NCBI GenBank assembly: GCA_946886975.1
Contig: CAMPJV010000012.1
Location: 1-19,629 of the forward strand
Reading direction: 5' to 3'
Length of the DNA stretch: 19,629 nt
From: an uncultured Taibaiella sp.
Lineage (GTDB): Bacteria; Bacteroidota; Bacteroidia; Chitinophagales; Chitinophagaceae
Shown: piece by piece, positions 1 through 15,528 of the stretch
How positions within the stretch are numbered: the first letter of the stretch is position 1
How the letters are laid out: every line of letters begins with the position of its first letter
Translations under genes and position numbers: made by a program
Notes under the pieces: generated by a model
Databases searched by the model: none
What the model was told of the DNA's origin: nothing
Seen by the model: only the letters and a program-made list of their open reading frames with translations

Positions 1-2346
1 CAGGGGATTTGCTGTTGAGATATTTGGTGTCGTATAATTAAGAGCAATCCCGGTTGGTGGGTTAGGATCGGTAGGAAATTTGCCTGTAGAGTCTGATAGC
101 ACCGGTCCATAGGTTGGTCCGGTCTGAGATTTGGAAAGAGCAGTAAACTCCTGTCTATTTTCATTGATTTGTATGATATTCCCGAACGTCATCGAAAATC
201 CGCCAAATATCGAGAGATTGGGAGCTACATAGTATTTGAGCATCAGAGGTATCTCAATTTCCCAATAGTTTTTTTCCTTTACGGCTTGTCCCAAAATAAT
301 GGAATCATAGGCATTATGATAAGTATATCGCCTTACTAACACAGAATCACTAGCTCCAGGCTGACTTGGTGAATAAGTTGAGTCGTTAAAAGTTACGGAT
401 TGACCAGTTAGCCTATGATAAGCCCGAGTTGCACCAAATATAGCAGGCTTGTTGATCTGGTTGTACTTAACGCCCGGTTGCACGGCCAGCCCCACTCTTG
501 GCGATAAATTCCATTGAAGGAACGGTGCTACAACAAAGTTGTTGGTAGTTATTTCGCTAAACCCTCTGTCATACCCAGCCTTAATTCCGCCTTCCACTTT
601 CATCTTATTAAAGTTCCTCTGCTTGCGCTGACGTTCCGCATTCCCACCACCTCCGCCACCACCGGATGGTGCCGGAAGGCCCGGTTCGTCATCATCAGTA
701 GTTGCAGTTGGCGTTGTCTCCGTCTCATCCTCCGCTTCCAGGGCAGACATATTCAAAACGATGCCGTCCTCATTACGTTCATAAGCTTTTTTGGCTGGTT
801 TCGCTGCTGGTTCAGCCTTTGCAGTCTGGATTGACTTTGCCTTCGCTCCACTGTTTGTAGATGCATTATTAGTGACAGGTTCCGGTGTTGCCGCCTTATT
901 AGCTTCAGAGCTCAGACTTATTTCCTTATTCTTGTTAGGCTCCGGAGTTACAAGTATGGGTGTGCCCTTTGCACTTGTAGATGAAACTTCAATGGGCTTT
1001 CCTTTCGATTGTTCCGGTGTTATGCTAACGGGGTTGCCACTGCTCTTTTCCGGTGTCACAGCGATTGGCTTAGCTTTTGCTACCTCAGGCTCCAGCAGCA
1101 CAGGCTTGCTCGCGGTCTTCTCCGCAACTGGCTTGGTCGGTTGTTTAATTTCTAAAGCTGGGTTTGGCGTAGCCGTTGACGTGTTTGCCGTAGTTGTTGT
1201 AGGGCTAGTCTTTTTATCCTTCGCATCAGGCACAGGCACCGCATTAATGCTCTTACCATTGGCGTTCTTCGGCTGTGATTCCTTAGTGTTATTCGCTTTA
1301 GCAACAATCTCCTTCGTAGGGTCGCCCATCTTATTCGTTCCTTCAGCCGTCGCGCTCTTCGCTGTTTCCTGTATTAATGCTTTTGTGTTCTTCTGCTCTT
1401 TACCGGCATCGGCGGCATTCGGCGTCTCTCCCCCTTGCGTAGTCTCTGTCTGGGTGTTATTGTTCACCTTGGCATTCGCACTCGACGTACTATTTTCAGC
1501 AGTACCTGTGGCGGGATTATTATTGCTATTGGCAGTAGCCACAGCTTCAGCGCCCGCCTTCGTCTTAGTCGCTGCACTGGTTGTGGCGGTGACATTAGCA
1601 GTCGTCTTCTTGTTTAGTGCAGTAGCGTTCTTGGTATTGGTTGTAGTTCTCTCAGTTTCGCCTCCATTCTCTGCAGAGGTGACACCCTGGGTATTGGCCG
1701 AAGCGTTGGCTGCCGTAGCACCTTTATTCGAAGCTGCTTTAGTCTTATTCGTTCTTTTAACAGAAGCAGTCCTGGCATTCGTACTTGTCTTCTTCTCCGT
1801 TACATTTTCGTTATCACCTTTAGTTCCTGCGTCCTCATTTCCTTTCTGGGCCTTCTCTTTACTCACGCCACTGCCTTCACTATTTTCACTTGCTGCCTTA
1901 TCCCATACCTTCAACGCCTGCTTCTTCTTTGTGCCTCGGGTTTCCGATTTGCTCGTCCCCGGTGCGTCTGGCGTTTCGTTCATCGCCGTTTCAGTCCCAT
2001 CATTACTGCTGCTCGGAGTTCCGGCTTCTGTTATATTCGTATCTGTCGCCGTAGTCGAAGGCGTAGCTCCGGAAGGCGCGCTTCTCTCCACATTTTCATT
2101 TAAAGGCTTCCTCTTCGATGTAGTCTTTTCTAGCGACTTGTTGATAATAAAATACCCCACAATACCCAGCAGCGCCAGCAATAGCAGTATCCACAGCCAC
2201 CTTCTCGATGGTTGCTCTGCTACCGTTGCTTCAGCGGCAGGCAATCTCTGTTCCAGTGAGGTCCACACGCTGGCCGGCGGTGTCTCCCGGTAGTCGTTTA
2301 GTCCTTCCCGGAACAGATCATCAATATGTTTACTGCGGTCGTCCAT
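1..2346 (-). CDS. Dual-membrane-spanning anti-sigma-like protein with C-terminal outer-membrane beta-barrel (3' end missing)
   Basis: The frame is open from an ATG at 2344-2346 to the window edge (782 codons, no stop), so the C-terminus is missing. Residues 1-48 form a short charged tail containing PPASVW followed by LEQRL; I recall this 'PPxxVWxxL' pattern from many Bacteroidota proteins encoded beside ECF sigma factors. Residues about 50-68 are one hydrophobic helix (LWILLLLALLGIVGYFII) preceded by two Arg. Residues about 70-580 are a low-complexity Thr/Ala/Asn/Lys/Glu linker with four 12-residue repeats (426-473) and seven Gly in a row (562-568). From about 582 (MKVEGGIKAGYDRGF) the sequence alternates like a porin-type beta-barrel. 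The gene begins 8 nt after the stop of the ECF sigma gene, so the two are surely co-transcribed. Inference: the tail holds the sigma factor, the helix sits in the inner membrane, the linker crosses the periplasm and the barrel sits in the outer membrane, as in the Dma anti-sigma factors described in Bacteroides. Sigma binding itself is not visible in the sequence. Confidence 0.85.
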   Translation of the reverse strand, partial: MDDRSKHIDDLFREGLNDYRETPPASVWTSLEQRLPAAEATVAEQPSRRWLWILLLLALLGIVGYFIINKSLEKTTSKRKPLNENVERSAPSGATPSTTATDTNITEAGTPSSSNDGTETAMNETPDAPGTSKSETRGTKKKQALKVWDKAASENSEGSGVSKEKAQKGNEDAGTKGDNENVTEKKTSTNARTASVKRTNKTKAASNKGATAANASANTQGVTSAENGGETERTTTNTKNATALNKKTTANVTATTSAATKTKAGAEAVATANSNNNPATGTAENSTSSANAKVNNNTQTETTQGGETPNAADAGKEQKNTKALIQETAKSATAEGTNKMGDPTKEIVAKANNTKESQPKNANGKSINAVPVPDAKDKKTSPTTTTANTSTATPNPALEIKQPTKPVAEKTASKPVLLEPEVAKAKPIAVTPEKSSGNPVSITPEQSKGKPIEVSSTSAKGTPILVTPEPNKNKEISLSSEANKAATPEPVTNNASTNSGAKAKSIQTAKAEPAAKPAKKAYERNEDGIVLNMSALEAEDETETTPTATTDDDEPGLPAPSGGGGGGGNAERQRKQRNFNKMKVEGGIKAGYDRGFSEITTNNFVVAPFLQWNLSPRVGLAVQPGVKYNQINKPAIFGATRAYHRLTGQSVTFNDSTYSPSQPGASDSVLVRRYTYHNAYDSIILGQAVKEKNYWEIEIPLMLKYYVAPNLSIFGGFSMTFGNIIQINENRQEFTALSKSQTGPTYGPVLSDSTGKFPTDPNPPTGIALNYTTPNISTANPL
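928..1071 (-). repeat. Four 12-residue tandem repeats in the periplasmic linker
   Basis: Residues 426-473 of the envelope-spanning protein read as four consecutive 12-mers: KPIAVTPEKSSG, NPVSITPEQSKG, KPIEVSSTSAKG and TPILVTPEPNKN. Position 2 is always Pro, positions 3 and 5 are aliphatic, and TPE follows in three of the four. The third copy has diverged (SST in place of TPE). The repeats lie near the barrel end of the linker and look like an extended, proline-stiffened spacer. I know no named domain for them. Confidence 0.75.
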
Positions 2347-2354
2347 TTTGTGCT

Positions 2355-2942
2355 TTACCTCAACGTTATTTTCTCTTTTAGTCTCCGTCGCGCATCGTTC
2401 AGATGCCACCGACAGTTATTTTCATTCAGCCCCAGGTGTTCCGATATCTCTTTATGGGACAGCTGCTCAAATACAAAAAGGTTAAATACAGCCCTTTGCG
2501 TCTCAGGTAGCCCATGCACCAGTTGCAATAGTTCCTTATAGCCCATTTTCCCAATAACATCCCCATCCACATGCACGTCAGTAGTCTCTATCTCCACTTT
2601 GTAAGCAGGCTCCTTCTTAATGTACTTACGGAAGTTATCAGTGATCGTGTTGATGACAATACGACGCATCCACCCTTCAAACGAACCTTTGAAGGAATAG
2701 CCGCTCAGGCCGGTCAGTATTTTATAGAATGCGTCATTCAGTATTTCATCCGCCTGCCCGGTATTATAGACATAACGTTTTACCATACCATAGAGTAAAG
2801 GAGCATATTTGTCATACAGCTTCTTCTGGGCTAGCCTGTTCTGGGCAATACAATCCCTTATCAGGTCTAAAGGGGGTTCTTGACCTGGGGCAGGGCTACT
2901 TCCGGAAGTTTGCTGATGCAGTATGTTATCCTTTTCGGACAA
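2355..2942 (-). CDS. ECF-family RNA polymerase sigma-70 factor
   Basis: This 195-residue protein has the two domains of an ECF sigma factor. Region 2 spans about residues 38-107 (KLYDKYAPLLYGMVKRYV, then DEILNDAFYKI and the tryptophan-containing FEGWMRRIVINTITDNFRKY). Region 4 spans about 138-190 with a helix-turn-helix (LSHKEISEHLGLNENNCRWH). It directs RNA polymerase to a specific set of promoters, and its length is normal for the family. The start is unusual: the first possible codon is TTG (2940-2942), an in-frame TAG lies two codons upstream, and there is no ATG before region 2, so TTG is the best start. The anti-sigma-like gene follows after 8 nt and is its likely regulator. The ECF type is clear; its target promoters are not visible. 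Confidence 0.93.
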   Translation of the reverse strand: MSEKDNILHQQTSGSSPAPGQEPPLDLIRDCIAQNRLAQKKLYDKYAPLLYGMVKRYVYNTGQADEILNDAFYKILTGLSGYSFKGSFEGWMRRIVINTITDNFRKYIKKEPAYKVEIETTDVHVDGDVIGKMGYKELLQLVHGLPETQRAVFNLFVFEQLSHKEISEHLGLNENNCRWHLNDARRRLKEKITLR

Positions 2943-3105
2943 GTGCTAAACGTTTACCAAAGGCTCTTAATTCTTTGTTCTTACTTGATGACGAACATTC
3001 GGAAGGAAATGTTAGTGCAACGGGCTAAATTTTTTTAAAGGTTGGGTCATCTGCCAAAGTTTTTTTTCCTCCGGCTGGTTAAAGCTATCTATTAGGTGCC
3101 AAACC

Positions 3106-3762
3106 TCATAACATATCATTGCTGTACAGATACATAAGCAGGCACAGTAGCAGCGTAACACCCAGCACGATCAGGGGCAGATACTTGTCTCCTCTCATCT
3201 TTTTTCTCCTCTCCTCTTCCGCAAAGGCTATTGTCTGCCGCATCAGGTTATCATTGCCCGCCATCATCCCCAGCCTTGATACTATTGCGGGGTAATACCT
3301 ATAATCCAGTTTCCTTATCGAGCTAATGATCTCCTCCAGGATCTGACGGTTCGTCTGCTGTTCCTGCTCCTGCTGCAACACCCCAAGGTGCGAGTCCGAC
3401 AGCAGCAGAAGCACGTATTCACTAACGGCTTTGTGGTTCATCGTATAGCTGTCCAGCCCCGCCATATGACTGCTTAATTTCCTTGCCTCCTTCAGCAGCC
3501 ACTCTCCTGATATGATCATCGGATCCTTTCGGCTGCTTAACCCCGCGAAGTATCTCTCCTCGTCATATATTTTCCTCTTTTGCTCATCCCCAAGCACCTT
3601 ATATGCCTCCTGTATCTCCCTGAAGTGACTCGCGGTGAAGCCGCTGTCCAGGTTCTTGTCCGGGTGATATTTATGCGCCAGCACCCTATAGGCTTTCTTC
3701 ACTTCCCCCAGCGTTGCCGTAGAAGCTATCCCCAATGTTCTATAATGATCTTTTAGCCCCAT
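3106..3762 (-). CDS. Tail-anchored J-domain (DnaJ-like) protein
   Basis: Residues about 5-68 form a J domain (DHYRTLGI, then KKAYRVLAHKYHPDKN, then FREIQEAYKVLGDEQKRKIYD) with the catalytic HPD triad at 33-35. This stimulates ATP hydrolysis by a DnaK-type Hsp70. There is no Gly/Phe region, zinc finger or substrate-binding domain, so it is not a full DnaJ. Residues about 80-190 are mostly helical and charged and I recognise no domain there. The C-terminus is one transmembrane helix (about 194-213, YLPLIVLGVTLLLCLLMYLY) with only about five residues behind it, so the J domain would sit on the cytoplasmic face of the membrane and recruit Hsp70 there. It lies 163 bp upstream of the ECF sigma gene on the same strand, so co-expression is possible but not shown. 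Confidence 0.9.
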   Translation of the reverse strand: MGLKDHYRTLGIASTATLGEVKKAYRVLAHKYHPDKNLDSGFTASHFREIQEAYKVLGDEQKRKIYDEERYFAGLSSRKDPMIISGEWLLKEARKLSSHMAGLDSYTMNHKAVSEYVLLLLSDSHLGVLQQEQEQQTNRQILEEIISSIRKLDYRYYPAIVSRLGMMAGNDNLMRQTIAFAEEERRKKMRGDKYLPLIVLGVTLLLCLLMYLYSNDML

Positions 3763-4541: not shown

Positions 4542-6749
4542 CTAATGCTGCACCACGATCCTCACCACTCCTGCTTTTCCTGATTCACCCGTGATCTTCA
4601 CAAAATAAACGCCGTTCGCCAGCTGGCTGGTAGCAATAGTCTTTTTAGTCTCCGAGTCAGCGCTTGCATGGATCACAGATTGTCCCAGCATATTCAGGAT
4701 GTCTATCTCCATCTCTTGCTGCTCTGTTCCCCAGTCTATCACAAGCTCATTATTTACCGGGTTCGGGTACACCTTCACGTTTTCCAAAGAGAACCCGCCA
4801 ATGCTCAATAACGATACATTCAGAACGTTCGACTTATCTGACGCACATCCCGTCCCGGTGGCCTTTGCATAGTGGTTGCCCGGCTCGATCGGATGATACG
4901 TCTGGCTAGTCGCTCCTGGTATTAACCCGTTCGGGCCAAACCACTGCACTGGCGACACGCTTGCTACCAGGTCACCGTTCACAAACGAGATCACTGGTGC
5001 CGGCAGCCCCGGAAGGAAGCTTACGGTATGTCCGTTCGATCTTATAGTATCAGGGGTATTACAAGTTGTGTTATTTACTACGGTCATGCTGGTCACCACG
5101 TCCCCGCTCTGCAGGTTGGTAGGGTTCCATGTTGGCCCTGCTGCTGCAGGAACTCCGTTCACCAGCCAGGTAATGGAACTGCTGCCTGGCACATTAGTGG
5201 TTGTGGCCACAAAAGAGATCACTGAATCCTGACAGCCTGGGAAACCAGAGGTGATACTGCTCACCAGCGTTGCTCCTGTAGACGGCTTAATGGTCACTAT
5301 ATAGTCTTCTGCCTGCCCTGCAACAAGGCTCCCGCATGGGGTAGGAGGGGGTGCCGTGGTCAGGTCGCTAATGATACGCATCCTCAGTGCCTGGCACACC
5401 ACTGGTCCTGTAGCCGGAATGTTCACCGTTCCGGTGTGAACCTGGTTAGCTGTCGCTCCTGCATGGAAGTACACCAGCTCCGCCGGATCCTGGAACTGCC
5501 CGTCATTGTTGTAGTCTATATATGCGCTCACATTCTCAGGCTGAGGGCCGGTCGTTACGCTGATCGGATAGCTCGTCCCGAGATATACTTCTGTGTTGTG
5601 CGTACAAAAGTTGTCTACATGTATACCCTCGGTGTTAAATCCTCCTGAGGTCCTCGTCATGTTGTTAAAGCTCACCTCTTGTGGTCCCACGTTAGCAGGG
5701 CTGCCTGGGTTCATTGCCGTAGGGATGCATTGTGAAGGCAGCGCTGGTTGTGGCGCATTCACTCCGCCGTCCGACACCATTAAGCTCGCCCGGTTATTCA
5801 GCAGGTTCCATAATACTTTCTCTCGCTGGCCAGCCGTAAATCTGTCCCTGCAGCCTTGAGTGTAGCTCATAAAGCTGAACTGAGTGTTGTTCAGGGGAGT
5901 ATTAGTGCATGGGTTGATCACATCGGTACAGGTAATGCCTCTCTTATGAGGCTCAGTGTCACAGATGCCGTCTCCGTCCAGCAGACAGTCTACATTCGGT
6001 GGACAGTCCACACCGCCATTATCGCCTTCAAAGGTGTGCGGCAGTCCCATTCCGTGTCCAAATTCATGGACCAGGGTAGAATATCCCGCCTGCGCGTATG
6101 CGGCAAGGATCACAGTGCCATCTATAGAGGGACCTGCGCCGGGATAATAGGCATATCCCGCCACACCTGGATCGTCTATCTTGTTTACCACCCACACGTT
6201 GTAATATTGGTCGTTTGGCCACAGGCTCAAAGCTTTCACATCCACGTCAGACGCTCCCGGGCTGCCTATTCCGCCAGAGGCATAGCCTGACAGCACAGTA
6301 CCATTCACCCTGTTTATGCCGTTCGTCGGCTTGCAGTCCGGATCCCTCGCAGCCAGTACAATTTTGAAGGGTATTCTCGATCCTCCGTTGGAAGTGTTCG
6401 GGTAGGCCGGCCAGATAGCCTGGTAGGTCTTGTTCACATAGTCCACAAGATCCATCAGCTGAATGTCTGTTGGGTTATACGCCGATCCGATCGGACCGCC
6501 GGTATGCACCACATGTATCACCATCGGTATCTCGTAAACCGTGTCGTTGCCGTTGATCAGCAGACGGGCGCTCTCCTTCATTTGGTTGAAGTTCACCCAG
6601 TCCTGAGTCATTTTCTGAACCCGCTGCTTGTAGACGGGGTCATTCTGCATTTGTTGCTTGTGGCGTTTCTCAAAACCACACAGCTCCTGCGCATGTACTA
6701 TTGGCGAGAAAGCAAATAGTAGCGCAATGGAAGTAATAATTCTCCGCAT
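4542..6749 (-). CDS. Secreted M43 (pappalysin-type) zinc metalloprotease with T9SS sorting domain
   Basis: This 735-residue protein starts with a signal peptide (cleavage probably after VHA-20). The zinc site is HEFGHGMGLPH at 228-238, matching HExxHxxGxxH with ligands H228, H232 and H238 and base E229. A Met-turn follows (FSFMSY, M294). Cysteines are frequent between the zinc site and the Met-turn, as expected for M43 enzymes. Residues about 380-486 contain a GEVED-type module (AYIDYNNDGQF, then GQAEDYIVTI). Residues about 495-645 look like Ig/PKD-like beta modules. The C-terminus (about 655-735; KVYPNPVNNEL to GVYFVKITGESGKAGVVRIV) is a Por/T9SS type A sorting domain. The product should cross the inner membrane by Sec and the outer membrane by T9SS, then be released or anchored, and would digest extracellular protein. 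Its substrate cannot be told. Confidence 0.95.
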   Translation of the reverse strand: MRRIITSIALLFAFSPIVHAQELCGFEKRHKQQMQNDPVYKQRVQKMTQDWVNFNQMKESARLLINGNDTVYEIPMVIHVVHTGGPIGSAYNPTDIQLMDLVDYVNKTYQAIWPAYPNTSNGGSRIPFKIVLAARDPDCKPTNGINRVNGTVLSGYASGGIGSPGASDVDVKALSLWPNDQYYNVWVVNKIDDPGVAGYAYYPGAGPSIDGTVILAAYAQAGYSTLVHEFGHGMGLPHTFEGDNGGVDCPPNVDCLLDGDGICDTEPHKRGITCTDVINPCTNTPLNNTQFSFMSYTQGCRDRFTAGQREKVLWNLLNNRASLMVSDGGVNAPQPALPSQCIPTAMNPGSPANVGPQEVSFNNMTRTSGGFNTEGIHVDNFCTHNTEVYLGTSYPISVTTGPQPENVSAYIDYNNDGQFQDPAELVYFHAGATANQVHTGTVNIPATGPVVCQALRMRIISDLTTAPPPTPCGSLVAGQAEDYIVTIKPSTGATLVSSITSGFPGCQDSVISFVATTTNVPGSSSITWLVNGVPAAAGPTWNPTNLQSGDVVTSMTVVNNTTCNTPDTIRSNGHTVSFLPGLPAPVISFVNGDLVASVSPVQWFGPNGLIPGATSQTYHPIEPGNHYAKATGTGCASDKSNVLNVSLLSIGGFSLENVKVYPNPVNNELVIDWGTEQQEMEIDILNMLGQSVIHASADSETKKTIATSQLANGVYFVKITGESGKAGVVRIVVQH

Positions 6750-8265: not shown

Positions 8266-9246
8266 ATGTCCCGACAGTTGCTCTTCATACTCGCTGCCTT
8301 ACTACTTACAAGCTCTGCCTATGCGCAGAAAGCTCTTGGCACACGGCTTCAGTCTTACGATTATCCCTACCCGGTCTACTTTATGCCTGCCACCGTGGAA
8401 AGCCGACACGTCCAGATCGCTTACATGGATGTCAGGCCTTCTCGTCCGAATGGAAAGGTGGTTCTGCTCATGCATGGAAAGAACTTTCCTGCTGCCTACT
8501 GGCAGCATACAATTGTCGCTTTGACCGGTGCGGGCTACAGGGTACTTGCTCCTGATGCGCTCGGATTTGGCAAGTCCTCCAAGCCGCTGGTGCAGTATAG
8601 CTTTTCCTTACTCGCCGCCCTTACCAGGGAACTGCTCGACACCCTGAAGATTCAGAAGGTAGCAGTTATTGGTCACTCCATGGGTGGCATGCTGGCCACG
8701 CGTTTTGCCCTAAGCTATCCCGAAAGAGTCTCTAAGCTGGTGCTGGAAGATGCACTTGGACTAGAAGACTGGCGGAGCAAGGGTGTGCCCTACAGAAAGG
8801 TAGACGACTGGTATAAAGACGAACAGGCTGCCACCTTCCAGAGCATTCAGAAGTACCACAAAACTTCATATTACCCTGTCTGGAACGAGGAATACAATGA
8901 ATGGATAAACGTCCAGTACGGCATGAAGCTCAGCAAGGACAGGAAGCAGCTCGACTACGTTAATGCCCTTACCTACGATATGATTTTCAACCAGCCAGTC
9001 GTTCACGAGTTCCCTGACCTGAAGGTGCCAACTTTGGTGGTGATAGGTACAGAAGATAAGACGAAGCTTGCAAGGGGAGTTTCAGAAAGGCTTGCTGCCA
9101 CATTCGGCAACTACAGAAAGCTTGGTAAAGAAGCCGCAAATGCTATTCCCAACTCCCGGCTCATAGAATATGAAAATATTGGACACGTCCCGCATCTGGA
9201 GATCCCGGAGCAATTCCACGCCGACTTAATAGAGTTCCTTAAATAA
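8266..9246 (+). CDS. Exported alpha/beta-fold hydrolase
   Basis: This 326-residue protein has a signal peptide (LLFILAALLLTSSAYA, cleavage about residue 20). The alpha/beta hydrolase core shows an oxyanion-hole motif HGKN (70-73), the nucleophile elbow GHSMGG with S138, an acid in VVIGTED (D264) and the catalytic His in NIGHVPH (H307), so the triad is complete. A lid-like insertion lies at about 165-245. It resembles the esterase/epoxide-hydrolase-like branch; the exact reaction (ester, lactone or other) cannot be assigned. With its signal peptide it should act in the periplasm or outside the cell. Its last codons overlap the 3' end of the convergent response regulator gene by 8 bp. Confidence 0.93.
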   Translation: MSRQLLFILAALLLTSSAYAQKALGTRLQSYDYPYPVYFMPATVESRHVQIAYMDVRPSRPNGKVVLLMHGKNFPAAYWQHTIVALTGAGYRVLAPDALGFGKSSKPLVQYSFSLLAALTRELLDTLKIQKVAVIGHSMGGMLATRFALSYPERVSKLVLEDALGLEDWRSKGVPYRKVDDWYKDEQAATFQSIQKYHKTSYYPVWNEEYNEWINVQYGMKLSKDRKQLDYVNALTYDMIFNQPVVHEFPDLKVPTLVVIGTEDKTKLARGVSERLAATFGNYRKLGKEAANAIPNSRLIEYENIGHVPHLEIPEQFHADLIEFLK

Positions 9247-9871
9247 ACTTATTATCCTTTGCCGTCTTAATGGCGTCAGCTTTGGAGTGGACATTCAGCT
9301 TGTGGTAGATGTTCTTTATATGGCTCTTCACCGTCTCCAGGTCTATGAACAGCTCGTCAGCTATCCGTTTCCTGCTCTTCCCTGTAGCAATCTGCTCCAG
9401 TATCTCCGTCTCTCTCCTTGTAAGAGGGGAAGACTCATTACGCTGAAAGGATTGGATAACCATCCTGGCAATATGAGCGCTCATTGGCCCGCCACCTTCC
9501 ATCACCTCATGTATCGAGCTGATGATCTTCTCATGTGGAGTATTCTTTGTAAGGTACCCCGACGCACCATTCCCAAGGGCGCGGAATATCAGCATATCCT
9601 GCTCGTACACGGTCAGTATCAGAATATATGTTTCAGGTATTAGCTTCTTCAGCTTAGGCAAGGCATCAATACCCGATATGCCCGGCAGCTCCACGTCCAG
9701 CAGCAGTACATCCGGGTCGTCATGATGTATCTTCTTAGCCGCATCCTCAAAAGAGGGATAGGTACTAACCACCTTATACCCTGGAGTATTGCCTATCAGG
9801 TAGGCATACCCTTCTCTGATGGTTTCATCGTCTTCTATTATGCTTACCCGGATATCAAGGTCCCTGCTCAT
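9239..9871 (-). CDS. LuxR/NarL-type response regulator
   Basis: This 210-residue protein has the normal length and order: a receiver domain (about 7-125), then a LuxR-type helix-turn-helix (about 147-206). In the receiver the acidic pocket is E13-D14-D15, the phosphoacceptor is D59 (LLLDVELPG), the switch Thr is T87 and the conserved Lys is K109 (YLTKN). The output domain starts at LTRRETEILEQIATGKSRK and has the recognition segment LETVKSHIKNIYHKL. It lies 45 bp downstream of the propeller histidine kinase gene on the same strand and is almost certainly its partner. Phosphorylation at D59 should control DNA binding. Possible targets are the divergent receptor gene at 13078 or its own operon. 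Its stop codon lies inside the 3' end of the convergent hydrolase gene. Confidence 0.96.
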   Translation of the reverse strand: MSRDLDIRVSIIEDDETIREGYAYLIGNTPGYKVVSTYPSFEDAAKKIHHDDPDVLLLDVELPGISGIDALPKLKKLIPETYILILTVYEQDMLIFRALGNGASGYLTKNTPHEKIISSIHEVMEGGGPMSAHIARMVIQSFQRNESSPLTRRETEILEQIATGKSRKRIADELFIDLETVKSHIKNIYHKLNVHSKADAIKTAKDNKFI

Positions 9872-9916
9872 AATCTGGAGTTTACAAGTTAAAGTTCCAA
9901 CAGTTTTGTCAATCTT

Positions 9917-12889
9917 CTATCCCCTTTTTAAGGGTATATCCTTTGGCAGCCTGAACGTAAGATTGATAATTGTCCCCTTTCCTTTATTGGAATCTATATA
10001 TAGTCTGCCATGTATCCTCGCCGCCCTCACGTTCATATTGTCTATGCCGTGTCCTTTCTTCACGTAGTGAATGTCAAAACCCTCACCGTTATCAGTCAAT
10101 ATCAGCTGCAGCGCGTTCTCATCTTTCAGGTTTGCTTCCAGCTTAACCTCCGTCGCCCTGGAGTATTTAAGACAGTTATTCAGTGCTTCTTTAAATATCA
10201 TGATCAGGTTCCTGCTTATATCCAGCGGCAGCCTGTATTCCCTCCATCGTTCATCGGTCCCAGTGAAAGTGAAGTTGATCTCCGTGTCCTGGAATAGCTC
10301 GCCACCAAAGTCCCTTATCCGGTGTATTATCTCATAAAGACTGTCATTTGACGGCTTCAGCGACCAGAGTATATCTCGCGTGCCGCTATATAGCTGTGCC
10401 GTGTTATCCTGTATCTGGTGAATGATCCTGTCCGTCTCGGGGGTAAGGAGTATCTTCTTCTTAAGTACATTGGTCAGTACATTGATCCTTGTAAGCTTAT
10501 TGCCCACTTCGTCATGAAAGTCCTCCGCAGTTCGCTGTCTCACCTTATTCTGCTCTTCCCTTCTAAGTTTTTCCAGTAGCTTCTGCCGGTTCTGCTTCCT
10601 CAGGTTCGCAATGTATTGTATGCTAATCCCCAACAAAATACATCCCGCCAATATGATCAGCCGAAACCAGTTGGTCTTATGAAAAGGGGTAATGATCTCA
10701 AACGGATAGGAGAGTTCTCTAGGCTGTTGATCCGCTCCAAATGCCATGCATTGCACTACGAAGGTATAGTTGCCAGGCGGCAGCGCCGAGTAGGTTACAG
10801 TATTAACTGTAGACCAATCTGACCACGGTGCATCCAGTCCTTCTATCCTGTACCTGTACTTTATCTGTTCACTGCTCCCCAATGAAATTGCATGAAAAGT
10901 GAAGGCAATATTGTTCTTTTTATAAGGTAGCCTTAGCCCGTAAGGAACATGGTACCACACGTCAGTACTGTCATAGTAGCTGCTGTCAATATAGTTCTCC
11001 CCGAAGAGCTTTATGGACTGCATCACAATACTGGTTGGTTGTGGAACTATCAGCTGCGACTGTGACTTATAGTGCAAAGCCCCATTCGTAGTCCCAAACC
11101 AGATGCTTCCATCCGGCATCTTCAGGACTGCGTTGTGATTGCTCTCCATTCCCCTCATTCCATGACCTTTACCGTAGAAGTAAACAGACGGCTGACGCTG
11201 GTCACCTATACTTATCCGGTGGATGCCATATCCTGTACCTGTCCATACATTACCGTTATCGTCTATCACAATATTGTAGATGAAATCAGACTGCAGCCCG
11301 TTCTTTCTGTCAATTGTAAATGTCTCGCCAGTCCTCAGATTGTAGTAGATCACACCATTGTCACTAGTACCCACCCACAGGTCATTGCCTGACCGCGCAA
11401 AACATTGCGGCAGAGCAGTATCCAGCACAGTTCCTGTCTTGTAGGGGTACACCGTTCCTCCGACGCATAGTTTTATCCCCAGGGAAGTAGCCATGAGCAT
11501 GCTGTCTCCTTCCAGTTGCAGAAAGTCCTGCACAACCACCCTGTCAGTATATACTCTTTTCAGACTGTCGTTCTCATACACCATGGCTCCGTTCGAGAAT
11601 CCAATCCATAGCCTGTTCCTGTCATCCGTATACATCGACGCGATTGCATTGGAAATCACCTTTCCCGTCTCGGCCGCATAGTTAAAAAAATAGGTCCCGT
11701 TATACCTCCAAAGTCCTGCTCCTCTTGTACCGATCCACAATGTCCCGTTCCTGTGTTTCAGAGCTGTTATCGCTGTGGACTTCAGTGGAAAGCCAACGCT
11801 ACTTACATTGCCGTTCTCATATACATAAAGTCCTGCGTCGTAGGTCCCCAGGAATATCCTTCCACCCCTGTCCCTTTCTATGCTCATTATCTGCCCGCTG
11901 GGCAGCCCTGTGCTCTCATCCACTACGGTAAACTGGGTGCCCGAATACCTGAAAACGCCCTGCCCATCCGACGCCATCCAGACGTTCCCTTCCGCATCCG
12001 TGAACATGCCCGGAAAGGAGTTGTCGCTCAAACCACTTCTCTTAGTAAAATAGCTCACTGCCGAGTCAACTATTCTTATCACTCCGCTGTTGGTTCCCAG
12101 CCATAGTGCTCCTGTGCGGTCTTCCGTCATGGAAAGTAGTGCTGGCAAATTTCTCGTTTTAGCGGCTACTATTCGGCCGCTGTCCATGGTATATAGCCCT
12201 CTGTTCGTGGCGAGCCAAAGGCGCTGTTTGCTGTCCCTGTAGATTTCATTAATGATGGTTCTCGCCAAAAGCTCATTTGAAGGCACCACCAGGCTGTCCC
12301 ACTTCTTACCAGAAAACCTATAAAGGATGCCTCCCGCCTTAGCCGTCCAGATACTGTTCTTCTCTACCAGCAGCGATGTCAGGAGCGCATTTGTATCTGG
12401 TGTTATCAACTGTTGCGTCTTATTGCCCAACACAGTAAATAGCTTGTTGCTGGCAATGCACCATGGTGTTCCGTTAGGGTGAAACCTTATGTGGTATACA
12501 TTAGGTGCGGTCTGAGTGTCATGTGTTTTAATCGTGTATAGTTTAAAGGTCTTGCCGTCAAATCGTGCAAGTCCGTCAGGTCCTCCTATCCATATGTTTC
12601 CGTTCTTGTCCGCAGCTACTGCGTTGACGGTATTATCGGGCATGCCGTCTCTTACAGAGTAGTTCGTAAAGGTCTTTCCGTCATATCTGCTCAGTCCACC
12701 GAGTGTCCCTATCCACAGATGCCCGAGTTTGTCCTGCGCCATTTCCCTTGGCTGCGACTGTATCAGCCCGTTCTCAACGTTCAGGTTATAGAATGGATAC
12801 CGTTGCGCCTGTAGATAAGTCGTGCTCCCTAAGAGCACAAGGATGATTTGGAATAGGACTATTTGTCTCGGGTAGTTGCCTTTCAACAT
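9917..12889 (-). CDS. Propeller-type sensor histidine kinase (Reg_prop, Y_Y_Y, HisKA_3, HATPase)
   Basis: This 990-residue membrane kinase has a signal peptide or N-terminal helix (about 9-28). A periplasmic sensor of many two-component propeller repeats follows (about 35-640; repeated units such as GHLWIGTLGGLSRYDGKTF and GNIWIGGPDGLARFDGKTF), then a Y_Y_Y domain (about 655-735; IKYRYRIEGLDAPWSDW, LPPGNYTFVVQ) and one transmembrane helix (about 742-764). The catalytic part is HisKA_3 with phosphoacceptor H792 (EDFHDEVGNKLTRI) and HATPase_c with N-box FKEALNNCLKYS (899-910), G1 box TDNGEGF (932-938) and GHGIDNM (946-952). It ends without a receiver or AraC domain, so it is not a one-piece hybrid system. 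The separate regulator gene lies 45 bp downstream. Homologous propellers often sense carbohydrates, but the ligand here is unknown. Confidence 0.95.
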   Translation of the reverse strand: MLKGNYPRQIVLFQIILVLLGSTTYLQAQRYPFYNLNVENGLIQSQPREMAQDKLGHLWIGTLGGLSRYDGKTFTNYSVRDGMPDNTVNAVAADKNGNIWIGGPDGLARFDGKTFKLYTIKTHDTQTAPNVYHIRFHPNGTPWCIASNKLFTVLGNKTQQLITPDTNALLTSLLVEKNSIWTAKAGGILYRFSGKKWDSLVVPSNELLARTIINEIYRDSKQRLWLATNRGLYTMDSGRIVAAKTRNLPALLSMTEDRTGALWLGTNSGVIRIVDSAVSYFTKRSGLSDNSFPGMFTDAEGNVWMASDGQGVFRYSGTQFTVVDESTGLPSGQIMSIERDRGGRIFLGTYDAGLYVYENGNVSSVGFPLKSTAITALKHRNGTLWIGTRGAGLWRYNGTYFFNYAAETGKVISNAIASMYTDDRNRLWIGFSNGAMVYENDSLKRVYTDRVVVQDFLQLEGDSMLMATSLGIKLCVGGTVYPYKTGTVLDTALPQCFARSGNDLWVGTSDNGVIYYNLRTGETFTIDRKNGLQSDFIYNIVIDDNGNVWTGTGYGIHRISIGDQRQPSVYFYGKGHGMRGMESNHNAVLKMPDGSIWFGTTNGALHYKSQSQLIVPQPTSIVMQSIKLFGENYIDSSYYDSTDVWYHVPYGLRLPYKKNNIAFTFHAISLGSSEQIKYRYRIEGLDAPWSDWSTVNTVTYSALPPGNYTFVVQCMAFGADQQPRELSYPFEIITPFHKTNWFRLIILAGCILLGISIQYIANLRKQNRQKLLEKLRREEQNKVRQRTAEDFHDEVGNKLTRINVLTNVLKKKILLTPETDRIIHQIQDNTAQLYSGTRDILWSLKPSNDSLYEIIHRIRDFGGELFQDTEINFTFTGTDERWREYRLPLDISRNLIMIFKEALNNCLKYSRATEVKLEANLKDENALQLILTDNGEGFDIHYVKKGHGIDNMNVRAARIHGRLYIDSNKGKGTIINLTFRLPKDIPLKRG

Positions 12890-13077: not shown

Positions 13078-15528
13078 ATGAAGCCTGGGATGATGTTAGT
13101 TTTCGCCGCTATATTGATGACCACAAGCTCCTTCGCCAGGAAGGATGGCTATATTATCAGCGGTAGGGTAGTTGATAAAGAGCAGCAACCTGTCGTTTCT
13201 GCCAATGTGGTTCTTGTGAAAGACTCCGGAAAGCTGGTCAAAGCTGCCCTCACTGACGAGCAGGGCCTGTATTCGATAGAAGAAATTGCAGCGGGTGAAT
13301 ACATCATTAAGGTTACGCTTCTTGGGTATGAAACTTACTCGTCACAAAAGCTGATTGTCTCTGGCAACACATCAGTCCCAGACATATCAATTACTGCAAA
13401 GAGTACTACACTGAATGAAGTAGCCGTGCGTGCGCAGAAGCCATTTATCGAAGTGAAGGCAGATAAGATCATCGTAAATGTCGAGAACAGTATTATAAGT
13501 GCAGGCTCGTCCGCCATGGAGGTGCTGCAGCGATCCCCGGGTGTTATGGTCGACAACAATGACAACATTTCTCTGAAAGGAAAGCTGGGAGTTATGATCT
13601 GGATGAATGGTAAGCAAACGCCTATGTCCGGTACCGACCTCGCCAACGTCCTGAAGAGCATGCCAGCAAATTCCATTGACCGGATAGAGATCATCTCCAA
13701 TCCTGGCGCCCGCTACGACGCCGCAGGCAGTGCCGGAATAATTAATATCATAACCAAAAAGGATCAGCGGCTCGGCGCAAATGGGACTATAAGCCTGTTT
13801 TACGGACAGGGGGTATATCCCAAGTATGGGGGAGGAGCAAGTCTGAACTACAGGAACAAAAAGCTAAATGTGTTTGCCAGCTACAACTACTCCCGGCGCG
13901 TATGGTTCAACCACCTGATGCTTAATCGCCGCTTTCTGGATACAAGTAAGGCAAATTATAATCAGCAGATCTTCCGCCTCGACCAGGACAATTATGCAGT
14001 GTTCGACTTTAATAACCACCTTTTCAACACTGGGTTGGACTATAGCCTGTCACCTAAGACGACGCTTGGCATTTCAATAAGCGGAGCAACCAACAGGTTC
14101 AACCCTAAAGCAGATAATAGTTCAGCCAAACACCTCGCCAATGATGAAATTGACTATAGGTTTTACACTACTGGCAGGCACAGCAACTTCTACTATAACT
14201 ATTCAGGCAATGGTTACCTGAAGCACGTGTTCGATAGCTCCGGTAAAGAGCTCGCCGTGGACCTTGATTATGCCGCTTTCGGCAATCAGAGCAACCAAAA
14301 CTTCGTTACTATATTCAGAACGCCGGAAGGAGCGTTTGATTCTTCTGATTATGCCTTGAGCAGCGATTTGACTGGCCTGACCCAGATCAGAAGTTTAAAG
14401 GTCGACTTCACCAATCCCCTAAGCAGTGGGTTACGGCTGGAAGCTGGTATTAAGGTCAGTTATGTGACTGCAGATAATGAGCCTGTCTTTTTTGAGAGTA
14501 ATAGCTCTGAGCCCGACCCACTGAGAACAAATCATTTTGTTTACACAGAAAACATAAATGCAGCTTATGTAAACACAAACAAGGACTGGGAGAAGTTCGG
14601 TATGCAGATAGGATTGAGAGTCGAAAACACAAACATCAGACTTGAGCAAAGGGCCGTAAATCAACCTTACGACAGCACATATTCCTATACCCAGCTCTTT
14701 CCAAGTTTTGCTGCACAGTATCATCTGACTCCAAAGCATGATCTGGGACTCACCCTGAGCAGGAGGATCGAGCGGCCCAACTACCAGCAGCTTAATCCTT
14801 TCCGGTATTACATAGACGCAACGACTTACCGCGAGGGTTATCCCAATTTAAAGCCTGCTTCATTTTACTCTGTTGAGCTGTCTCACACCTATAAGCAGAA
14901 GTTTCTTACTACCGTCACCTATGGAATAAACTATGGAATTATCACTGAGGTGATACAGCCTAGCGATAAAGAAGAAAACGTAACCGTACAAACAAATAAG
15001 AACCTTGACCGCATGCTGTTCATAGGGTTGAGCGGTGCATACCCCTTCCAGGTAACTAAGTGGTGGAACAATGTAACGAACTACAATATCTACTACGCCC
15101 GCTACGAAGGCAATGTGGCAAATACTCCGTTGAATGATGGCCGCCCCACATTCGACTTCAATACAACCAATACCTTCATTCTGCCAAAGAACTTTTCTGC
15201 CGAAGTAGGTGGCTTCTACCAGGCCAGTCAGCTATACGGCTATATGGATGTCCGGCCCGTCTGGATGCTCAATATGGGTGTTCAAAAGAACTTCCTGGAT
15301 AAGCGCGCCACGCTGCGTCTAAACGTGCAGGATATCTTCTGGACCGGCTATCCGGGCGCAACCTCAACTTACACTGGCTACCAGGAGCACTTTGTAGCTG
15401 AGAGAGAAACAAGACAAGTTACAATCGCCTTTACCTACCGCTTCGGCAAGAAATCTGTAGCCCCTTCCCGCCGCCGCACCGGTGGTGCAGAAGACGAGAA
15501 GCGCAGAGCCGGCACAGGCGGCGCATAA
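13078..15528 (+). CDS. TonB-dependent receptor-like outer membrane protein (carboxypeptidase-regulatory-like domain, plug, beta-barrel family 3)
   Basis: This 816-residue protein has a signal peptide (cleavage about residue 20, SSFA-RKDG). A carboxypeptidase-regulatory-like domain spans about 26-108 (SGRVVDKEQQPVVSANVVL, EYIIKVTLLGYE). The plug spans about 118-228 (MEVLQRSPGVMVD, IDRIEIISNPGARYDAAGSA, IINIITKK). A large beta-barrel of the OMP_b-brl_3 type follows (about 235-785; LSRRIERPNYQQLNPF and YRFGK are typical). A basic tail (RRRTGGAEDEKRR) lies beyond the last strand, as in many members of this family. It should take up or bind a ligand at the outer membrane using TonB energy. No SusD-like partner gene lies beside it, so it is not a classic glycan-uptake pair. 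It is divergent from the sensor kinase gene and may be under its control. Confidence 0.93.
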   Translation: MKPGMMLVFAAILMTTSSFARKDGYIISGRVVDKEQQPVVSANVVLVKDSGKLVKAALTDEQGLYSIEEIAAGEYIIKVTLLGYETYSSQKLIVSGNTSVPDISITAKSTTLNEVAVRAQKPFIEVKADKIIVNVENSIISAGSSAMEVLQRSPGVMVDNNDNISLKGKLGVMIWMNGKQTPMSGTDLANVLKSMPANSIDRIEIISNPGARYDAAGSAGIINIITKKDQRLGANGTISLFYGQGVYPKYGGGASLNYRNKKLNVFASYNYSRRVWFNHLMLNRRFLDTSKANYNQQIFRLDQDNYAVFDFNNHLFNTGLDYSLSPKTTLGISISGATNRFNPKADNSSAKHLANDEIDYRFYTTGRHSNFYYNYSGNGYLKHVFDSSGKELAVDLDYAAFGNQSNQNFVTIFRTPEGAFDSSDYALSSDLTGLTQIRSLKVDFTNPLSSGLRLEAGIKVSYVTADNEPVFFESNSSEPDPLRTNHFVYTENINAAYVNTNKDWEKFGMQIGLRVENTNIRLEQRAVNQPYDSTYSYTQLFPSFAAQYHLTPKHDLGLTLSRRIERPNYQQLNPFRYYIDATTYREGYPNLKPASFYSVELSHTYKQKFLTTVTYGINYGIITEVIQPSDKEENVTVQTNKNLDRMLFIGLSGAYPFQVTKWWNNVTNYNIYYARYEGNVANTPLNDGRPTFDFNTTNTFILPKNFSAEVGGFYQASQLYGYMDVRPVWMLNMGVQKNFLDKRATLRLNVQDIFWTGYPGATSTYTGYQEHFVAERETRQVTIAFTYRFGKKSVAPSRRRTGGAEDEKRRAGTGGA

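Follow-up and report, generated by a model that had tools for sequence, protein, structure and literature searches.

A sigma factor and a candidate dual-membrane-spanning anti-sigma factor from an uncultured Taibaiella, with a probable link to type IX secretion cargo

The DNA analysed here (the window) is a stretch of 19,629 nucleotides (nt) of contig CAMPJV010000012.1 from an uncultured Taibaiella sp. It begins, on the reverse strand, with a gene pair: an extracytoplasmic function (ECF) sigma factor gene and, behind it, a gene for a candidate anti-sigma factor of the kind known in Bacteroides as Dma, a dual-membrane-spanning anti-sigma factor. An earlier note on this DNA had paired the two genes and proposed that the second product carries a signal from the outer membrane to the sigma factor; the observation itself is confirmed and right in substance, whereas the interpretation, taken as a whole, is partly supported. 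The features of the pair are these:

2355..2942, reverse strand: ECF sigma factor gene, 195 amino acids (aa), TTG start (Pfam regions 2 and 4, homologues)
1..2346, reverse strand: Dma-type anti-sigma gene, ATG at 2346, 782 codons to the window edge (homologues and reading frame)
2203..2346, reverse strand: cytoplasmic tail, residues 1-48, predicted to bind the sigma factor (tail motif in 80/80 loci, homology to a Bacteroides tail)
2263..2280, reverse strand: PPASVW motif, residues 23-28 (sequence)
2143..2199, reverse strand: single transmembrane helix, about residues 50-68 (hydropathy, P0003 model, charge bias)
604..2142, reverse strand: disordered periplasmic linker, 513 residues (composition, P0003 model)
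931..1074, reverse strand: four degenerate 12-residue units, KPIAVTPEKSSG-like, residues 425-472 of the linker (protein repeat)
1..603, reverse strand: first 201 residues of an OmpA-like outer-membrane barrel, incomplete (P0003 identity, barrel profile, P0003 model)
2990..3015, reverse strand: promoter-like motif CTAACATT-N14-CGTC ahead of the sigma gene (shared by related loci with identical spacing)

The TTG of the sigma gene is the first start codon past a stop. The protein matches Sigma70_r2 (3.2e-11) and Sigma70_r4_2 (8.3e-14) in Pfam, and 1271 of 1414 candidate homologues were found at E<=1e-10; an NCBIfam scan showed that among the 25 best matches listed the general TIGR02937 alone passes its cut-off. 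Exactly 8 nt (2347-2354) separate the sigma stop codon from the ATG of the dma gene, as the earlier note had stated. The dma frame leaves the window at base 1, and judged from the full-length homologues P0003 (805 aa), P0004 (905 aa) and P0005 (811 aa), about 85 C-terminal residues are missing.

The pairing recurs in related bacteria and is not a matter of chance. A contig scan with an anti-sigma alignment matched 91 stretches, none of which was confirmed, and loci were collected with a 32-row sigma alignment instead, the best 80 of 335 relatives being retained. These loci come mostly from Taibaiella, Flavipsychrobacter, Chitinophagaceae and unnamed Bacteroidetes metagenome-assembled genomes (MAGs). 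In all 80, which were found via the sigma gene, a frame bearing the tail motif follows it, starting -58 to +20 nt from the sigma stop (the two loci at -58 reflect an earlier start codon picked by the script); the second frame is fragmentary in 4, cut by the contig end in 8 and full-length in 68. The two nearest loci, L001 and L002, are titled Taibaiella and Flavipsychrobacter MAGs and share 79-80% sigma identity with the window, which supports the placing of this copy in another branch of the phylum than Bacteroides. One record, L007, is titled as a MAG of Azovibrio restrictus, and its sigma-Dma pair closely resembles the one in L006 (titled uncultured Bacteroides sp.); probably the label is wrong or the bin is mixed.

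The window anti-sigma protein (P0001) matches no Pfam or NCBIfam model at E<=0.01, and its parts were identified from sequence features and homologues. The cytoplasmic PPxxVW tail reported earlier is present, and a single membrane helix is indicated: the most hydrophobic 19-mer ends at residue 68, the model of P0003 has a helix spanning 42-84, and the mean net charge is +2.17 before the helix and +0.64 after it (before exceeds after in 43/72 proteins, the reverse in 16/72). The charge bias favours a topology with the N-terminus inside. The linker, put at about 510 residues in the earlier note and measured here at 513, contains 10% FILMVWYC and no Cys, and the corresponding region of the P0003 model has a predicted local distance difference test score (pLDDT) mostly below 50, consistent with disorder. 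Its length is unremarkable, contrary to the earlier emphasis: linkers in the 68 full-length loci span 164-694 residues, with a coefficient of variation of 0.52, and 14 of them are at least as long as that of the window; linker length was rejected as a rare feature. The repeats said to mark the linker do exist as four 12-residue units; they are modest and degenerate, and Tandem Repeats Finder reported no DNA-level repeat there.

The barrel piece in the window (201 residues, against 249-275 in the 68 loci and 271-280 in P0003-P0005) is 52, 42 and 42% identical to P0003, P0004 and P0005, respectively, and matches the barrel profile at E 1.9e-54. The outer-membrane barrel of the earlier note thus stands as a profile match here and as a full barrel in homologues, while in the window it is incomplete. 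In the model of P0003, the nearest full-length homologue, the predicted barrel is present and its fold matches small OmpA-class barrels. The outcome that the earlier note had named as refuting, a full-length prediction lacking the barrel, thus did not arise for this homologue. DSSP assigns the barrel 11 strand segments, two short adjoining ones being taken as one, and the label OmpA-like comes from the fold matches, not from a membrane-strand count. A Foldseek search with the whole 805-residue model returned outer-membrane proteins in all 50 best matches listed (root mean square deviation 18-34). A PDB sequence search with the family profile gave matches confined to profile positions 48-351, which we take for low-complexity linker matches. 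All 68 full-length second frames match the barrel profile, partly by construction, as it was built from 38 of them, and the barrel length hardly varies (coefficient of variation 0.02).

The same four parts have been described for Dma proteins (PMC13088901, J Bacteriol 2026; here and below, published work is cited as far as its available text goes), whose genes adjoin an ECF21 sigma gene in all cases but Dma3; the architecture is therefore already known. It is in print for Bacteroides thetaiotaomicron (PMC13088901) and for Phocaeicola vulgatus (PMC9308784), and the family is reported solely from Bacteroidota (PMC13088901). Like Dma1/Das1 and Dma2/Das2 of B. thetaiotaomicron, the proteins studied here have an N-terminal anti-sigma tail, one helix, a long tether and a C-terminal barrel, next to an ECF sigma gene, and the Dma-like assignment of the earlier note holds in each of these parts, the barrel in homologues. 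OmpA/OmpW-class barrels (PF13568, OMP_b-brl_2) have the same fold as the C-terminal domain, here fused to tether, helix and anti-sigma tail. For the Bacteroides comparison we used the sigma-linked homologue of Bacteroides ihuae (locus L120, protein P0126) and its relatives, rather than named dma genes; the L120 product is identical to a B. ihuae protein. Those of its relatives that carry names come nearly all from Bacteroides, most have PF13568, and their annotations read outer membrane beta-barrel, porin family or hypothetical protein. The tails of this Bacteroides set and of the present family align with an hhalign probability of 98% (E 1.9e-13, 72 columns), and the linker of P0126 has about 125 residues as against 164-694 here.

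Sampling the phylum through the tail, with up to 19 candidates scored per genome, gave matches in at least 74 of 296 genomes, with a sigma gene upstream by profile in 39 of 40 tail-found loci (20/20 and 19/20). In the first 20 of these, L081 and L082 are the sole matches to this family's barrel profile; for the rest, C-terminal strand judged by eye is at most a hint of a barrel. Scored against profile A2, a sigma factor beside a tail-bearing gene comes first or second in 10 other genomes; in G061 the tail-bearing neighbour is a short form. We also observed variants of the anti-sigma protein. Short proteins of 263-270 aa in L085, L086, L093 and L094, four of the first 20 tail-found loci, have the same tail and one helix, lack a barrel match and lie beside an ECF sigma gene. 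In other loci the tail stands in tandem before the helix (three copies in L009:8539-10602, two in L012:8578-10590 and at least two in L111:1955-3457); such tandem tails might hold several sigma molecules or several kinds of sigma factor.

The pair is preceded by a conserved promoter-like motif. Counting the window along with 74 loci, 70 of 75 sequences have TAAC-N17-CG[T/C]C[A/T] ahead of the sigma gene, where shuffled sequences predict 1.3, and the spacing is 17 in all 70 although 14-24 was allowed. The window has one perfect copy of the relaxed form CTAAC-N17-CGYC, the sigma site; with one mismatch allowed there are 7 copies against 5.6 expected. Before the sigma genes of 19 loci from the phylum search, the motif is present in L082, partial in L083 and not found in the other 17. 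Autoregulation is common among ECF factors, and the sigma-Dma pair is probably autoregulated through its own promoter motif. A second ECF sigma gene, of 192-194 aa, has the motif 187-256 nt ahead of it in four genomes (L123, L124, L189, L194), suggesting a possible cascade.

We searched for the strict form CTAACRTT-N14-CGTC first in 12 genomes with the pair (set 1) and then in 16 further ones (set 2, for which a tail profile was made from the 17 set 1 targets described here). Set 1 gave 33 sites, 7 before the Dma-linked sigma gene and 26 elsewhere; 17 of the 26 lie 20-154 nt before a gene with an N-terminal hydrophobic stretch and a Por_Secre_tail, the sorting tail of the type IX secretion system (T9SS), and Pfam confirms the tail in 17/17. 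Of the 66 sites in set 2, 13 belong to sigma genes and 28 lie before T9SS-tail genes; 3 precede signal-bearing frames that the fetched stretch cuts short, and 22 are others. Together, the two sets hold 99 sites in 28 genomes, and 45 of 79 non-sigma sites precede T9SS-tail genes, compared with 22 of the 419 other open reading frames (ORFs) in the loci, which served as background. At least one T9SS target was located in 23 of the 28 genomes. One motif target scanned with Pfam, of 426 aa, has a carboxypeptidase-regulatory-like domain; another, of 1329 aa, has NHL repeats, and a third, of 292 aa, has the sorting tail as its sole domain. With the spacing altered to 12, 13 or 15-18, the first 12 genomes gave 11 sites, 9 of them flagged inside a long frame; one of these nine (L177) lies 25 nt before a signal-bearing start, and four of the frames run off the stretch, so that their C-termini lie beyond it.

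The genes adjacent to the pair show the same association. In 43 loci the gene following dma is on the same strand, and in 28 of them it encodes a T9SS tail (Fisher p 1.1e-20); in 33 loci the gene before sigma is divergent, and 22 of these genes encode such a tail (Fisher p 1.7e-17), related loci being counted separately in both tests. A T9SS-tail gene lies next door in 51 of 68 loci. On either strand, downstream neighbours of this kind cluster by size: 9 have about 420 aa, 3 have 600-660 aa, 16 have 830-900 aa, and 2 are of other sizes; 18 of the 28 upstream ones have 285-315 aa. Neither L001 nor L002, the closest relatives of the window, has a T9SS-tail gene within two genes of the pair; their genomes carry unlinked motif-bearing cargo genes (L151-L153).

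Elsewhere in the window, the gene immediately preceding sigma, and on its strand, encodes a DnaJ-domain protein with a C-terminal hydrophobic stretch (3106-3762, reverse strand). Further along are a gene for an M43 metalloprotease with a GEVED domain and a T9SS sorting tail (4542-6749, reverse strand), a two-component pair (9239-12889, reverse strand) whose sensor has a Reg_prop propeller and a Y_Y_Y domain and whose response regulator is of LuxR type, and a gene for an outer membrane beta-barrel family protein (OMP_b-brl_3) with a CarboxypepD_reg domain (13078-15528, forward strand).

From these data we propose, with a probability of roughly 0.7, that the pair is a Dma-type switch, probably autoregulated, that controls some T9SS cargo, its signal and release step being inferred. 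Several points weigh against this proposal. The reversed motif gave 24 matches in set 1 and 28 in set 2, against 33 and 66 true sites, and raw motif counts alone are therefore weak; the reversed pattern has a different base order and is commoner than the true one in a sample of the order (23 versus 5, first 20 genomes listed). The argument for the T9SS link is accordingly made from the genes behind the sites, not from site counts. Five of the 28 genomes (G008, G010, G308, G321, G322) have no T9SS target at strict stringency, and no recognised T9SS-tail gene stands behind 9 of 26 non-sigma sites in set 1 and 25 of 53 in set 2, where 3 of the 25 lie ahead of signal-bearing frames truncated in the fetched stretch. 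The evidence on targets comes from related genomes, the window itself showing the sigma site only, and its T9SS-tail metalloprotease has no perfect motif copy upstream. The p-values overstate independence because the genomes were picked for the pair and are mutually related, some of the 68 loci being near copies, and the background ORFs include frames that are possibly not genes. Sigma binding, expression and localisation of the pair are predictions from sequence and models. Finally, in the comparison with Bacteroides Dma called for by the earlier note, with the B. ihuae homologue as stand-in, the tails proved homologous, whereas no sequence homology was detected between the barrels. The Bacteroides protein model, a weak one (mean pLDDT 51.8), also matches OmpA-class barrels; the predicted barrel fold is common to the Chitinophagales and Bacteroides proteins, from which common descent of the barrels does not follow.

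Among other explanations, the pair might be a general envelope-stress Dma system, whose barrel reports outer-membrane damage and whose regulon consists of repair or vesicle genes, the T9SS link being incidental because T9SS genes are numerous. The genomes do carry from 113 to at least 150 T9SS tails each, of which the strict motif reaches only a few, and the P. vulgatus authors deem cell envelope stress the likely signal of their pair (PMC9308784). The other motif targets were classified by frame reading alone, and repair genes may be among them. We nevertheless consider this reading unlikely: the share of T9SS-tail genes behind non-sigma sites far exceeds that in the background.

Alternatively, the motif could be read by another ECF sigma factor, the Dma-linked sigma gene being merely one of its targets. 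Each of 12 genomes holds 2 to 8 ECF relatives at E<=1e-20, the Dma-linked one counted, and the motif before the second ECF gene in four genomes would fit such an arrangement. In the order sample of 149 genomes, however, a sigma factor at E<=1e-58 was found in two only, and those two hold 5 of the 23 motif sites, whereas the 147 without it hold 18, near chance. This distribution, together with the frequency of autoregulation among ECF factors, makes another reader of the motif improbable.

Surface signalling of the FecI/FecR type is defined by a FecR periplasmic domain and a TonB-dependent receptor with a plug. A fused FecI/FecR/FecA-like relay, in which the barrel is a transporter signalling through TonB energy, shares with FecI/FecR the order of a sigma gene and a one-helix anti-sigma gene, but is hardly credible here, as P0001 has no Pfam family and hence no FecR or TonB-plug domain, and the barrel matches small OmpA-class barrels, not a plug-bearing receptor; it was rejected, and the 11 families listed for 36 members likewise include none of FecR or plug type.

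Under the proposed cargo-controlling switch, the N-terminal PPxxVW tail would at rest keep the sigma factor at the inner membrane, as homology and gene pairing suggest. One chain is predicted to cross the inner membrane once, to continue as a disordered periplasmic tether and to end in the OmpA-like outer-membrane barrel. At the outer membrane, a ligand binding to the barrel loops could act as the trigger, as could a barrel that fails to assemble or is lost; the sigma factor would then be released, most likely via cleavage of tether and helix. Since the tether varies fourfold and even the shortest, of 164 residues, has a contour of about 59 nm (0.36 nm each), cleavage or loss of anchoring is favoured over a taut pull; the spread of tether lengths beside the near-constant barrel also speaks against a mechanical rod of fixed length. 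The free sigma factor would then read CTAACATT-N14-CGTC promoters at its own operon, giving positive feedback, and at a small gene set, more than half of which would encode secreted proteins with a T9SS type-A sorting tail. The pair may thereby tune which proteins reach the cell surface.

This predicted output separates the present family from related systems. The Dma paper on Bacteroides describes effects on vesicles, NigD and polysaccharide utilisation (PMC13088901), whereas the targets predicted here are T9SS cargo. The P. vulgatus pair M0N98_03761/03760, alongside which EcfO of B. fragilis is cited, responds to an antibacterial toxin, with longer O-antigen and raised NigD-type genes; unlike here, no T9SS cargo is reported in the available text (PMC9308784). 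An ECF sigma factor is likewise linked to type IX secretion in Porphyromonas gingivalis, where PorXY-SigP governs T9SS component genes (PMC4800418) and the sorting-tail protein PorA influences the pathway (PMC7712824). SigP, unlike the sigma factor here, acts through a two-component system on T9SS components, the available text mentions no barrel anti-sigma factor, and the published SigP promoter consensus does not resemble our motif. The SM6 motif of Flavobacterium psychrophilum (CGT box) is, like ours, of ECF type and lies before T9SS genes and an ECF/anti-sigma pair; in the selection shown those genes are T9SS components (GldN, PorU), in contrast to cargo here (PMC9723704).

A more specific version of the proposal, which we regard as tentative and rather doubtful, is a dedicated T9SS circuit from outer membrane to RNA polymerase, in which the barrel monitors an adjacent secreted protein or its surface attachment and adjusts cargo expression. 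The monitored protein would be the divergent one of about 300 residues, or the downstream one of about 420 or 840. In B. ihuae no Por_Secre_tail scores above the cut-off. If the circuit exists, gut Bacteroides, as a lineage without such cargo, would have rewired it for vesicle and glycan roles.

Our literature searches, which covered open-licence PMC papers, turned up no report that links a Dma pair with T9SS cargo; as far as these searches go, the new part is the predicted output, the architecture having been described before. The Dma-type regulons found in print are from gut Bacteroides and Phocaeicola, whereas in Chitinophagales the motif points to T9SS cargo. A sigma-Dma switch with this output would link two questions: what Dma barrels sense, and how cells choose which T9SS cargo to make.

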